A DNA stretch of 64,000 nucleotides from NCBI GenBank assembly GCA_947630185.1, contig CANRGT010000010.1, positions 1 to 64,000 of the forward strand. The letters are read 5' to 3'. Made by a program: the position numbers and the translations under genes. The notes under the pieces were generated by a model. That model made no database searches, was not told the origin of the DNA, and was given only the letters and a program-made list of their open reading frames with translations. Source of the DNA: an uncultured Clostridia bacterium. Lineage in GTDB: Bacteria; Bacillota; Clostridia; TANB77; CAG-508. Shown here piece after piece: positions 26,780 to 56,469 of this stretch; the stretch's first letter is position 1; each line of letters opens with the position of its first letter.

Positions 26780-27481
26780 ATGTTTGCACTTTCTTTCTCC
26801 GGTCTTTTAGCCTTTTTAAATTCAGCTGTATTTTTAGTTGGTTATATTTCTAATAATTCATTATTTCCTGAGCCTTTAAGTAGTGAAGAAGAAACTAAAT
26901 ATTTAGAGCTTTTAAAGAATGGAGATGAAGAAGCTAGAAATATTTTAATAGAGCGAAATTTAAGGTTAGTTGCCCATGTTTGTAAAAAGTATTCTACTAC
27001 AAAAGTCGAACAAGACGACCTTATTTCTATTGGAACAATTGGCTTAATTAAGGGAATAAATAGCTTTGATAATAAAAAAGGTGTTAGACTCTCTACATAT
27101 ATTTCTCGTTGTATTGATAATGAGATTTTAATGTTTTTGAGAAGTACTAAAAAACTTGGTGCTGAAGTGTATTTAGAAGACCCTATTGGCAAAGATAAAG
27201 ATGATAATACTGTTACTTTACAAGAAGTTTTAGAGAACAATGATAAAAATATAGATGATGCTGTTGATTTAAAACTAAAAGTAAAACAACTTTATGAAAA
27301 AATGAAAGAAGTTTTAAAGGCAAGAGAAAAAACTATTTTGGAATTAAGGTTTGGGCTTGGTGGTAAAAAGCCTTTAACTCAAAATGAAATTGCAAGTAGT
27401 ATGGGAATTTCTCGTTCATATGTTTCAAGAATTGAAACAAAGGCCATTAATAAACTGGCAAAAGAAATGCGAAATGAGTAA
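26780..27481 (+). CDS. sigK: RNA polymerase sporulation sigma factor SigK (uninterrupted)
   Basis: FLVGYISNNSLFPEPLSSEEE..., IERNLRLVAHVCKKY, DDLISIGTIGLIKGI, region 4 HTH. Confidence 0.94.
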   Translation: MFALSFSGLLAFLNSAVFLVGYISNNSLFPEPLSSEEETKYLELLKNGDEEARNILIERNLRLVAHVCKKYSTTKVEQDDLISIGTIGLIKGINSFDNKKGVRLSTYISRCIDNEILMFLRSTKKLGAEVYLEDPIGKDKDDNTVTLQEVLENNDKNIDDAVDLKLKVKQLYEKMKEVLKAREKTILELRFGLGGKKPLTQNEIASSMGISRSYVSRIETKAINKLAKEMRNE

Positions 27482-27499: not shown

Positions 27500-27646
27500 A
27501 AATAAGAATACAAATTTTGTGAAGTTCCGCGTAGCGTTCAAACGTAGCTACTTTAGTAGCGAAGTGCGCTTGGAGCAGCCGACGTATTATTTTTTAAAAG
27601 GATGGCTGCGACAACAAGGAACAAACAAAATTTATATTCTTATTTT
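27500..27646. repeat. Structured repeat element copy 1 (candidate ncRNA or hairpin element)
   Basis: ~20-bp outer stem, gttcc/ggaac, gctac-ttta-gtagc, gcagcc/ggctgc; shares agcgaagtgcgcttggagca with 54695-54836. Confidence 0.75.
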
Positions 27647-27685: not shown

Positions 27686-29413
27686 CTATAATGTCTCTAA
27701 TATCTTCTTCATTTCCTCTTGCCTTTTAACTTTTTTAGTAGTAGTTTTTATTAGTTCTTCAGAAGTTAAAAGCATTTTTTGTATGTGTTTGTATTTTGGG
27801 AAGGTTGTATTTAACTCTTTTATCTTATCCCAAATTATTTTATATAAATCATCTTCACTGCTATCTGGATATTTTTCCTTTGCTTCCTCTACATTGTATA
27901 CGATTTTTACAGCAATTCTAATGTCTGATTTATCTCTTTTATCTGGCACACCAAATACCATACATTCTTCTACTAATTCTATTCTATTTACTAAAGTTTC
28001 AAGCTCTTCTGGGAATACTTTTTTTCCATTCTTTAGAACTATCATGTTTTTATTTCTACCTGTAATATGTAGAATTCCTTTTTTGTCAAAGTATCCTAAG
28101 TCACCTGTATAGAACCATCCATCTTTTAATACTTCAGCAGTTAATTCTGGCATTTCATAATATCCAAGCATTACATTAGGTCCTTTAACTTTTATTTCTC
28201 CAATTTCATTTTCATCTGGATTGTCAATTTCAATTGTGTCATTTATCATCGGAACACCAACTGAACCAGATGCCATTGCTTTATCATTTTCTGCTGCAAT
28301 AACTGGTGCTGTTTCGCTTAATCCATAGCCTTGCACTGTTTTAATTCCCAAATCATTAAATCCTTTTGCAATTTTTGCATCTGCTGGTGCACCACCAGAA
28401 ATAACAAATCTTAATTCTCCACCTAATGCATCTATTACTTGCTTAAATATCTTTCTTCTTATATCAATATGTAATTTTAGTAAAAAGTTGCTTATTACTG
28501 TAGCTACTTTAATAAGTTTGGTTTTACCTTGTTTATCAATTTCCTTCATTATTGTTTTATATATTGCTTCTATTAAAACTGGAACACCTACGAATAAGCT
28601 TACTTTGTATTCATTTAAGTTTTGTTTAATATATCTTAAACCATCTGGGAATGCATTTTTTACGCCACTTGCAAGCATCATAACAATACATGTTGAACCA
28701 AATATATGGTGGAATGGTAAAAATGCTATATTTGTATCTGTTTCTCTAATATCTTCTACACATTGCATAGCATAAATATTTGATGCCACATTTTTTTGTG
28801 ATAGCATTACTGCTTTTGACTTTGATGTTGTTCCTGATGTGAATAGTAAAATGCTCATTGCGTTATCATCTATTTTTGCATTTAAGAAATCTTTTTGTCC
28901 TTCTGCTAATAATTTTTCTCCTTCTTGCATAAGCTCTTTTACTGATTTATAACCAAAGTTGTTTTCACTCATACAGATATATTCTTTTATTGATGTATTT
29001 CCTTTTTCTTTAATTTCATTTATTTGGTCTGTTAATTTTTCATCGAATACAATGCAATCTGCTTTGCTTCTAACTATAGAACTTTCTAGTTCATCATATT
29101 GTAAGTCTTTATCAAGTGGTACTGAAACACTGCCACCTAATAAATTTGCTAAGTGTGTAAGTACCCACTCATAGCGATTTTTTCCTATTATAGCAACTCT
29201 TTTGCCTTTTAAGCCTATGCTATATAAAGCTGTTCCTAGTTTGTTAATGTCTTCTAATAATCCTTCATATGTTATATTTTCATAAGTTACTTCACTTCCG
29301 TTTTTGTGTTTTATAACGAAAGCTATTTTTTCATTATATTTTTCTGAAATGTGGTAAACTAATTCCTTTATGTTGTTAAATTCTGTGGCTTCAAAAATTT
29401 TTATTCTTTCCAT
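27686..29413 (-). CDS. Long-chain fatty acid--CoA ligase (AMP-dependent synthetase)
   Basis: LLFTSGTTSKSKAVMLS, GYGLSETAPVIA, GWFYTGDLGYFDKKG. Confidence 0.93.
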   Translation of the reverse strand: MERIKIFEATEFNNIKELVYHISEKYNEKIAFVIKHKNGSEVTYENITYEGLLEDINKLGTALYSIGLKGKRVAIIGKNRYEWVLTHLANLLGGSVSVPLDKDLQYDELESSIVRSKADCIVFDEKLTDQINEIKEKGNTSIKEYICMSENNFGYKSVKELMQEGEKLLAEGQKDFLNAKIDDNAMSILLFTSGTTSKSKAVMLSQKNVASNIYAMQCVEDIRETDTNIAFLPFHHIFGSTCIVMMLASGVKNAFPDGLRYIKQNLNEYKVSLFVGVPVLIEAIYKTIMKEIDKQGKTKLIKVATVISNFLLKLHIDIRRKIFKQVIDALGGELRFVISGGAPADAKIAKGFNDLGIKTVQGYGLSETAPVIAAENDKAMASGSVGVPMINDTIEIDNPDENEIGEIKVKGPNVMLGYYEMPELTAEVLKDGWFYTGDLGYFDKKGILHITGRNKNMIVLKNGKKVFPEELETLVNRIELVEECMVFGVPDKRDKSDIRIAVKIVYNVEEAKEKYPDSSEDDLYKIIWDKIKELNTTFPKYKHIQKMLLTSEELIKTTTKKVKRQEEMKKILETL

Positions 29414-53520: not shown

Positions 53521-54582
53521 TTAGTCCTCTGGCTCTGTTTCTTGTTCTGGATCTATTTCTTCATCATCGCCTAAACTTTTTTCAAAAGCTGCTTCATAGT
53601 TATCTCTGATTTTCTTTTCTACTTCTTCTAATATTTTAGGATTTTCTAATAAATATGCTTTTGCATTTTCTCTACCTTGTCCAATTCTTTCGCCATTATA
53701 GTTAAACCATGAACCACTTTTTTCTATAATATTTAAATTAACTGCTATATCTAATATATTTCCTTCTTTTGATACACCTTTTCCATAAATAATATCAAAT
53801 TCTGCTTCTCTAAATGGTGGTGCAACTTTATTTTTTACTACTTTTACTCTTGTACGGTTTCCTATAACTTCGCCGTCTTGTTTAATGCTTTCTATTCTTC
53901 TAATGTCTAGTCTAACAGATGCATAGAATTTTAATGCTCTACCACCTGGTGTTGTTTCTGGGTTACCAAACATAACTCCAACTTTTTCTCTTAATTGGTT
54001 TATGAATACTATAACACATTTAGATTTATTTATTACACCTGCTAGTTTTCTTAAAGCTTGTGACATTAATCTTGCTTGTAAACCAACATGACTATCTCCC
54101 ATATCTCCATCAATTTCTGCTTTTGGTACTAATGCTGCAACAGAGTCTACAACTATAATATCTAAAGCACCACTTCTAACTAAAGCTTCTGCTATTTCTA
54201 ATGCTTGCTCACCTGTATCTGGTTGAGATACTATTAAATTATCAATATCTACACCTAAGTGTTTTGCATATACTGGGTCTAAAGCATGCTCTGCATCTAT
54301 AAATGCTGCTTCTCCACCCATTTTTTGTGCTTCTGCAATCATATGAAGTGCTATTGTTGTTTTTCCAGATGATTCTGGACCAAATACTTCTATTATTCTT
54401 CCTCTAGGAATACCACCTATTCCTAAAGCTATATCTAAACTTAATGCTCCTGTAGGAATTGCTTCTACATTCATTGCTGTAAAATCTCCTAATTTCATTA
54501 CAGAACCTTTTCCAAATTGTTTTTCAATTTGACCTAGTGCTGCTTCTAATGCTTTCATTTTTTCTGGATTTTCATTATTCAT
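53521..54582 (-). CDS. recA: Recombinase A
   Basis: [49 protein letters not shown]. Confidence 0.99.
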
Positions 54583-54694: not shown

Positions 54695-54836
54695 ATTGAA
54701 AAATATTATAGTTTGTAGCACCGCTTAAGCAGTTCAAGCGAAGCGTAAGCGAAGTGCGCTTGGAGCAACCTTCTTATAATTTATTTATATTAAAGGTTGC
54801 GACAGCAAGGTGCAAAAACTATAGTATTTTTCAATA
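54695..54836. repeat. Structured repeat element copy 2 (candidate ncRNA or hairpin element)
   Basis: Outer stem attgaaaaatattatagttt/aaactatagtatttttcaat, gcacc/ggtgc, gcaacc/ggttgc; same core as 27500-27646. Confidence 0.75.
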
Positions 54837-54897: not shown

Positions 54898-56469
54898 TTA
54901 AGTTTGCATATACCACTCATGAAGTTTGTAATATATGCTATAATTATTTACTAACACTTCACCTCTAAAATTATTTGAATATGCAATTAAATTTTTATTA
55001 CGATATAATCCTATATATGGTATATCTTCATTATATATTTCTAATATTCTTAAATACTTTTGCTTCATTAACTCTTCTGATTTAATGTTTTTTAATTCTT
55101 CTAATATAATATTTATTTCTTCATTATTATAATTTGCCAAATTGTCTTTTCCAAAGAATTGAGTTAAATCCGGTGAAAATGAACTATATATTCCTGTTAA
55201 CAAAATTTCATAATTATGGTTTTCTAAATAATTTTTATATTGTGCTTCAGATATTTCTTCTACTATTAAATTAATTCCTGTTTCTTGTAATTCTTTTGCT
55301 ATTTCTTTTGCAACTTCTAACCTCTTAGCATCATTTCTATTTACTGATAATTTTATATTTAAATTTTCTATTCTTCCATCTATTTTCTTTTGCCAGCTTT
55401 CGTTTTCATAACTCCATCCCGCCTCATCTAATACTTTCTTTGCCTTTTCTATATTGTGTTCATATTTTAAATTTTCTACACCACTCAATAAATAATTACT
55501 CTCCTCTAAAGGAAAATAAGCAGTATATGCTTTTTCTTCTAAAATAGAATTAACTATTTTTTCTTGCTGTACAGTTAAAGCTATTGCTTCCCTCACTTCT
55601 TTATTTTTTAAGATATTATTTTCTAAATTAATTGATAGATAATCATACTCTCTACCTGAATAACCTACTTTTCCATAACCGATACTTCCAATATATTCTT
55701 CCACATTTTCATTTTCCGTATTAATTAGATCAATATTCCCTTCTTTAAATGCATTGTATACTTCTCCCATTGTATTATATAAGCCTATTGTAATTGTATT
55801 TGTATTTATAGATGTTGAATTATTATCTCTAAAATTATTATTTAATTCAAGTTCTATTTTTTCTTCTGCTATATCCTTAACCTTGTATCTTCCTGTGCCA
55901 ATAGGATAATTTTCATTTTGAGTAACACATAATATTGGGAATATTAAGTTATATTCAAAAAAAGGAATTTCTTGTTTCAATTCTAGTCTTAAAGTAAGTC
56001 CATCTATTACTTCTACTTTTTCGATATCTTTTACGTTTTCATAATATGCACTATTGGGATTTTCCTTTAATTCGTTTATAGAAAAGTCAACATCTTTTGC
56101 AGATAAACTTGTCCCATCAGACCATAATACATCTTCTTTCAATTTAATAATATATGTTTTATTTTCTATTTTTGAAACTTCTTGTGCTAAACAATTTTCA
56201 ATATGATAATCATTCGTTAAGCTCAAAAGAGGTTCAAAAATTAGCTGATCTATATAGAGAATATCTCTATTTTTTGTAATGTATGGATTTATTGAATCAT
56301 ATTCTGAAATGCCTAATCTTAAATTTGTACTTACACTTACTGTTTGATATGTTATTTCAGAACCTGCAGTTTCTCCTTTGGAATAATTTTGAATTAAGAA
56401 GTATATTACACCTGATATAATTAGTAAAACAAAAATAGTTATCAAAATTTCTAATTTATCTTTTCTCAT
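54898..56469 (-). CDS. ABC transporter substrate-binding protein, family 5 (peptide)
   Basis: LKEDVLWSDGTSLSAKDVDFSINELK; WSYENESWQKKIDGR. Confidence 0.9.
   Translation of the reverse strand: MRKDKLEILITIFVLLIISGVIYFLIQNYSKGETAGSEITYQTVSVSTNLRLGISEYDSINPYITKNRDILYIDQLIFEPLLSLTNDYHIENCLAQEVSKIENKTYIIKLKEDVLWSDGTSLSAKDVDFSINELKENPNSAYYENVKDIEKVEVIDGLTLRLELKQEIPFFEYNLIFPILCVTQNENYPIGTGRYKVKDIAEEKIELELNNNFRDNNSTSINTNTITIGLYNTMGEVYNAFKEGNIDLINTENENVEEYIGSIGYGKVGYSGREYDYLSINLENNILKNKEVREAIALTVQQEKIVNSILEEKAYTAYFPLEESNYLLSGVENLKYEHNIEKAKKVLDEAGWSYENESWQKKIDGRIENLNIKLSVNRNDAKRLEVAKEIAKELQETGINLIVEEISEAQYKNYLENHNYEILLTGIYSSFSPDLTQFFGKDNLANYNNEEINIILEELKNIKSEELMKQKYLRILEIYNEDIPYIGLYRNKNLIAYSNNFRGEVLVNNYSIYYKLHEWYMQT

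Follow-up and report, generated by a model that had tools for sequence, protein, structure and literature searches.

A previously unnamed hairpin repeat family of gut Clostridia with private arms, a conserved core and covariation that looks largely DNA-level in origin

The window, that is, the whole stretch of 64,000 nucleotides analysed here, belongs to the genome of an uncultured Clostridia bacterium (G000, the reference for site comparisons) and contains two intergenic elements (Table 1). Copy 1 is located between a sigma-factor gene (26780-27481, + strand) and a convergent AMP-ligase/fadD-like gene (27686-29413, - strand), and copy 2 upstream of recA (53521-54582, - strand) and after a solute-binding-protein-like gene (54898-56469, - strand), being placed between recA and the preceding gene in transcription order; the names of all these neighbours were read from translations only. 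A first-pass annotation had described the two stretches as sharing an identical core inside covarying stems, and this description was accurate. The exact 20-mer AGCGAAGTGCGCTTGGAGCA is present at 27558-27577 and 54748-54767 and nowhere else in the window (shuffles expect 0), the stem variants GTTCC/GGAAC versus GCACC/GGTGC and GCAGCC/GGCTGC versus GCAACC/GGTTGC are both present and preserve pairing, and the outer stems, of 19-20 bp, are unrelated to each other and still paired. Single-strand folding, compared with shuffles, gave z-scores of -5.0 to -7.9 for both copies, on either strand and as DNA or RNA.

Table 1. Features of the two copies of the hairpin repeat in the window.
Feature	Position	Strand	Basis or remark
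Copy 1, whole hairpin repeat	27500..27645	+	Covariance model R1, 111.3 bits, E 2.3e-25; folding
Copy 1, left outer arm AAATAAGAATACAAATTTTG	27500..27519	+	Pairs with 27626-27645, one C/A mismatch
Copy 1, P1 5' side GTTCC	27524..27528	+	Sequence, folding
Copy 1, P2 region	27529..27574	+	GCGTAGCG mini-hairpin, GCTAC-TTTA-GTAGC hairpin, conserved GAAGTGCGCTTGGA
Copy 1, P3 hairpin GCAGCC...GGCTGC, loop variable	27575..27609	+	Pair table
Copy 1, conserved joint GACAACAA	27610..27617	+	Alignment
Copy 1, P1 3' side GGAAC	27618..27622	+	Sequence, folding
Copy 1, right outer arm CAAAATTTATATTCTTATTT	27626..27645	+	Sequence, folding
Copy 2, whole hairpin repeat	54696..54834	+	Covariance model R1, 123.7 bits, E 9.9e-29; folding
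Copy 2, left outer arm TTGAAAAATATTATAGTTT	54696..54714	+	One T/G wobble with 54816-54834
Copy 2, P1 5' side GCACC	54718..54722	+	Pair table
Copy 2, P2 region	54723..54764	+	Mini-hairpins GC-TTAA-GC and GC-GTAA-GC
Copy 2, P3 hairpin GCAACC...GGTTGC	54765..54800	+	Pair table
Copy 2, conserved joint GACAGCAA	54801..54808	+	Alignment
Copy 2, P1 3' side GGTGC	54809..54813	+	Pair table
Copy 2, right outer arm AAACTATAGTATTTTTCAA	54816..54834	+	Sequence, folding

Matches to the 20-mer with at most two mismatches revealed at least 29 copies in G000, so that the two copies of the window are a sample of a repeat family. Its members have ~100-190 bases and are located between genes, only one of 82 placed copies being within an ORF and nearly all being intergenic. 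The consensus obtained from 52 copies (alignment A1) is formed by outer arms, P1, a P2 region, P3 and the joint GACARCAAG: P1 has 5 bp (GCACC/GGTGC and variants), the P2 region starts with GCG(T/C)AGCG or GCTTAAGC and ends with GAAGTGCG(C/T/A)TTGGA, and P3 (GCAACC...GGTTGC) encloses a loop of 2 to ~60 nt. The inverted arms are A+T-rich, 18-35 bp long and private to each copy. We also observed, in L016 of the window's genome, two copies that overlap or are adjacent, and similar close pairs in L108, L156, L209 and L215.

A covariance-model search (model R1) detected the repeat, with a patchy distribution, in 117 of 295 genomes from its own taxonomic family (22 of 39 genera), and 398 genomes from the rest of the phylum gave no match; the matches listed from an order-wide sample likewise all fell within that taxonomic family. 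Within the window's genus the copy number ranges from 0 (G055, G096, G111 and others) to at least 29, these counts being lower bounds since 11 places were scored per genome; no match was obtained in the same-genus genomes G055, G096, G111, G118, G123, G103 and G107 with filters whose stricter settings can miss weak copies. The named records with the repeat are uncultured Clostridia MAGs, many of them with 'Lapin' isolate names, which we take to denote rabbit gut. As the annotation had supposed, this is not a named Rfam family: nothing reached the gathering thresholds, and the plant-miRNA hairpins seen at relaxed thresholds were discarded, their scores being far below threshold. Searches of phages and plasmids with blastn returned nothing beyond a 21-base chance match, and a viral contig match (L060) was likewise set aside as a chance match in a GC-rich phage. 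The hairpin repeat is a previously unnamed family confined to one family of gut Clostridia.

The structure and covariation first noticed in two copies were borne out in 52. Over 33 named pairs, 91.4% of the cells are paired, against 75.4% in column shuffles and 34-39% in slid versions, and 279 doubly changed cells were observed versus 88.0 in the shuffles, with 23 pairs having changes on both sides. Such values would be expected of a functional structured RNA, either trans-acting or a UTR element, dispersed by chance and with covariation produced by selection for pairing. The same reading is favoured by the wobbles of P2 (33 G-U vs 3 A-C, the G-U cells mostly in one column/pair), which are compatible with a core whose + strand folds, either as RNA or as single-stranded DNA, and by C(GNA)G/C(GNNA)G mini-hairpins, of which 139 distinct cores contain 412 on the + strand and 15 on the - strand (shuffled mean 23), counts that come from related copies and are not independent. 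In single-stranded DNA, loops of the GNA type have unusual stability, as do those of the GNRA type in RNA. In G000 and G121, whose sites are shared, 26 of the 32 copies located between co-directional genes are antisense to them, but this bias is not consistent in other genomes; a strong orientation bias relative to flanking genes in a redundant set (40:9) was also rejected, as it is not consistent outside the window's genus.

The outer stem behaves differently from what a selected RNA helix would predict. On the folding strand of such a helix, G-U would be expected to exceed A-C, but the outer 18 pairs of 84 copies comprise 1438 Watson-Crick pairs, 15 G-U and 11 A-C, without strand preference, and this near-equality points to a DNA-level process; the corresponding G-U and A-C counts are 9 and 3 in P1, and 1 and 4 in P3. 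In five genomes, the two arms of one copy pair at 0.91-0.99. Between copies within a genome, the likeness of the arms is 0.65-0.67 in four genomes and 0.84 in G157 (random A+T-rich arms, 0.52), and that of the cores 0.82-0.96 and 0.98, respectively; these values, too, point to a DNA-level process in the arms. At two sites, orthologous copies in close relatives have arm changes that are coupled, and this again points to a DNA-level process; among them are GC to TA and AT to TA, transversions that cannot pass via G-U. Several arm changes between orthologs are one-sided, and the coupling seen over short divergence is documented by few events. We conclude that the outer-stem covariation is genuine, yet poor evidence for RNA function, and that the covariation looks largely DNA-level in origin. 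Considering also that several same-genus genomes gave no match, that Rfam holds no such family and that, as described below, the interior occurs in both orientations, we find a functional structured RNA improbable.

Comparison of sites between species showed how the element changes in place. Of the G000 sites, 17 could be aligned with an ortholog from G077 or G121, and at 7 of these the interior is inverted while the flanks are collinear, these inversions being seen between species, not inside one population, and read from MAG assemblies; an additional inverted site was observed between G077 and G121. At the copy 1 site the interior has the opposite orientation in both G077 and G121, and the agreement of two assemblies argues against a simple assembly error. 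An inverton, i.e., an invertible switch whose arms are acted upon by a site-specific recombinase, would account for these inversions and for the near-perfect inverted arms, but the arms differ at nearly every copy, leaving no obvious single recombinase site shared, and we regard this as highly unlikely. Template switching at inverted repeats reportedly leads to homogenised arms as well as to inverted spacers (PMC8604942), and was inferred to create compensatory changes in RNA stems (PMC8794818); by analogy with these published signatures, we infer template switching to be the cause of the arm coupling and of the inversions, an explanation that requires no RNA function.

Other site changes were observed. 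The copy 2 site has, in G121, the same arms and flanks with a different P2 top and P3, and the element is absent from it in G115, G117, G096 and G103; in G113 that place, upstream of recA (L185, ~2000-2290), is occupied by an unrelated hairpin element with arms TGCATAGTA and TAGTTTTT. Several G000 copies have orthologs in G121 that are partly deleted, with one arm retained, and L011/L226 look like a half-element exchange. Also in G121, a third palindromic repeat with AAGACAATGGGACGGGGTTTTTGTCTTA ends (L250, 12028-12186) replaces the element at the L001 site, and at L248 (16477, - strand) the P2 domain is swapped for unrelated sequence, the joint and P3 being kept. In the window's genome, L004, L010 and L025 read GCGTGGGCAAGG, and two of these sites have GCGACAACAAGG in the relatives compared, a pattern that would point to conversion among copies within the lineage.

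Empty sites in relatives, another check proposed at first pass, yielded one clean case, the remaining bare sites being deletion remnants or too diverged. At the L140 site, G077 has a copy, and G000 and G121 have a bare compact junction, GGGTA|GGTGATATATATG, in which the upstream stop codon runs directly into the ribosome-binding site of the next gene; no element match was found there in several other genus members that have the two genes close together. In this filled/bare pair the inserted sequence has 146-147 bp and the target duplication is at most 1 bp. The site is a probable gain of a copy in G077; its loss by one deletion in an ancestor shared by G000 and G121 would be less economical. 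G120 was dropped as the ancestral bare site for this gain, since its downstream gene does not directly follow, the bare G121 sites at several G000 copies, considered as insertion targets, proved to be deletion remnants, and for L327 and L200 the search produced no bare ortholog of use.

A MITE of the classical type depends on a resident insertion sequence, whose transposase recognises its terminal inverted repeats. Such an element would also be short, A+T-rich, multi-copy, intergenic, non-coding and bounded by terminal inverted repeats. In the hairpin repeat, however, conservation between copies is lowest at the ends and highest in the centre, the reverse of transposase-bound ends, and the duplication does not exceed 1 bp at the one clean site, which make a MITE very unlikely. 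Regarding a possible mover, the RAYT/Y1 transposase (PF01797) was rejected, as it shows no correlation with the repeat and is absent from the copy-rich genomes G000, G077, G187 and G174; a search for copies with an ORF between the core halves retrieved structural variants only.

Some copies are themselves located inside palindromes. In G157, three lie between inverted copies of the REP-like sequence TGAACTTTGGGGACGTTCCTTAAAGTTCA and others inside longer terminator-like palindromes, and one G186 copy is enclosed by a long palindrome that precedes an rpsJ-like gene. These arrangements could result from insertion into hairpin loops or from growth of the palindrome around the element. The G157 copies may also be taken in favour of a mobile element of a new class, whose folded single-strand core alone would be recognised and which would enter existing hairpins (terminators, REP-like palindromes) at their centre or build its own palindromic arms when it arrives, giving every copy private perfect arms; we consider this improbable. 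The palindrome TGAACTTTGGGGACGTTCCTTAAAGTTCA has ~170 matches in G157 (e.g., L358, L376 and L382), often as inverted pairs ~86 bp apart, and is essentially absent from 19 other genomes searched (one mismatched match). G186 has two rpsJ-like loci on different contigs, which suggests that this MAG may be contaminated.

The reading that we prefer, with a probability of about 0.7, is that both stretches are copies of one non-autonomous, mobile-like hairpin repeat family, with template-switched arms and a core kept for spread. The unit would spread to intergenic sites by a trans-acting activity, a step for which the L140 site provides one gain. Replication template switching across the hairpin would copy one arm onto the other, so that both arms change together, and would sometimes flip or truncate the interior, as the observed arm coupling and inversions suggest. 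The core would be retained because spread requires it, most plausibly in the form of a folded single strand. From the initial proposal of a structured RNA or a hairpin-recognised mobile element, the mobile half is the better supported, by the number of copies, their patchy distribution, a clean gain, the inversions and deletions and the swapped cores, the RNA half being conjectural. The lack of a target duplication above 1 bp at the clean site, the failure of the split-core search to point to an autonomous partner, the failure of PF01797 to track the repeat, the reading of the inversions from MAG assemblies, the one-sided arm changes and the G-U excess of P2 count against our preferred reading, and a residual case for folding of the + strand persists in the core, in the P2 wobbles and the one-strand mini-hairpins. 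The family provides a natural case in which textbook covariation, commonly regarded as proof of a functional RNA, appears to arise largely from DNA replication across a hairpin, and is a warning for covariation-based RNA discovery. The tens of copies per genome and the availability of close relatives make arm correction by template switching and spacer inversion measurable in evolution, and the question is raised of what spreads an element with non-conserved ends.

Template-switch hot spots at quasipalindromes show the same arm homogenisation and spacer inversion (PMC8604942, PMC8794818, PMC7202029), but they are a mutational process and not an element, and the cited yeast spacer inversions have 2-5 bp, whereas the spacers here have ~100 bp. 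Among repeat families, the bcr1-bcr18 repeats of the Bacillus cereus group are, in the portions of the literature consulted (PMC6542083, PMC3446304), also lineage-restricted, with tens of copies (bcr1 mean of 39 per strain), 100-400 bp and mobile features; bcr1-3 are described there as MITE-like, and some members have conserved secondary structure and are found in transcripts. The likeness is drawn from descriptions; bcr mobility is tied in those portions to a TTTAT motif, and the same portions report neither private arms nor frequent in-place inversion. BOX, RUP and SPRITE of Streptococcus pneumoniae are likewise short dispersed repeats with terminal repeats pairing in a tight fold, and their consensus structures were obtained with RNAalifold (PMC3049150); BOX and RUP have terminal repeats and target-site duplications (PMC3049150), in contrast to the copy-specific ends and the duplication of at most 1 bp observed here. 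REP/BIME/REPIN elements (REP classes: PMC3733652), moved by RAYT (PF01797) transposases, are also dispersed hairpins with plausible single-strand recognition, although the hairpin repeat is a much longer branched unit and PF01797 is lacking in the four copy-rich genomes mentioned above. By analogy, we would read the hairpin repeat as similar in kind to bcr1, BOX/RUP and REPINs, with a conserved core.
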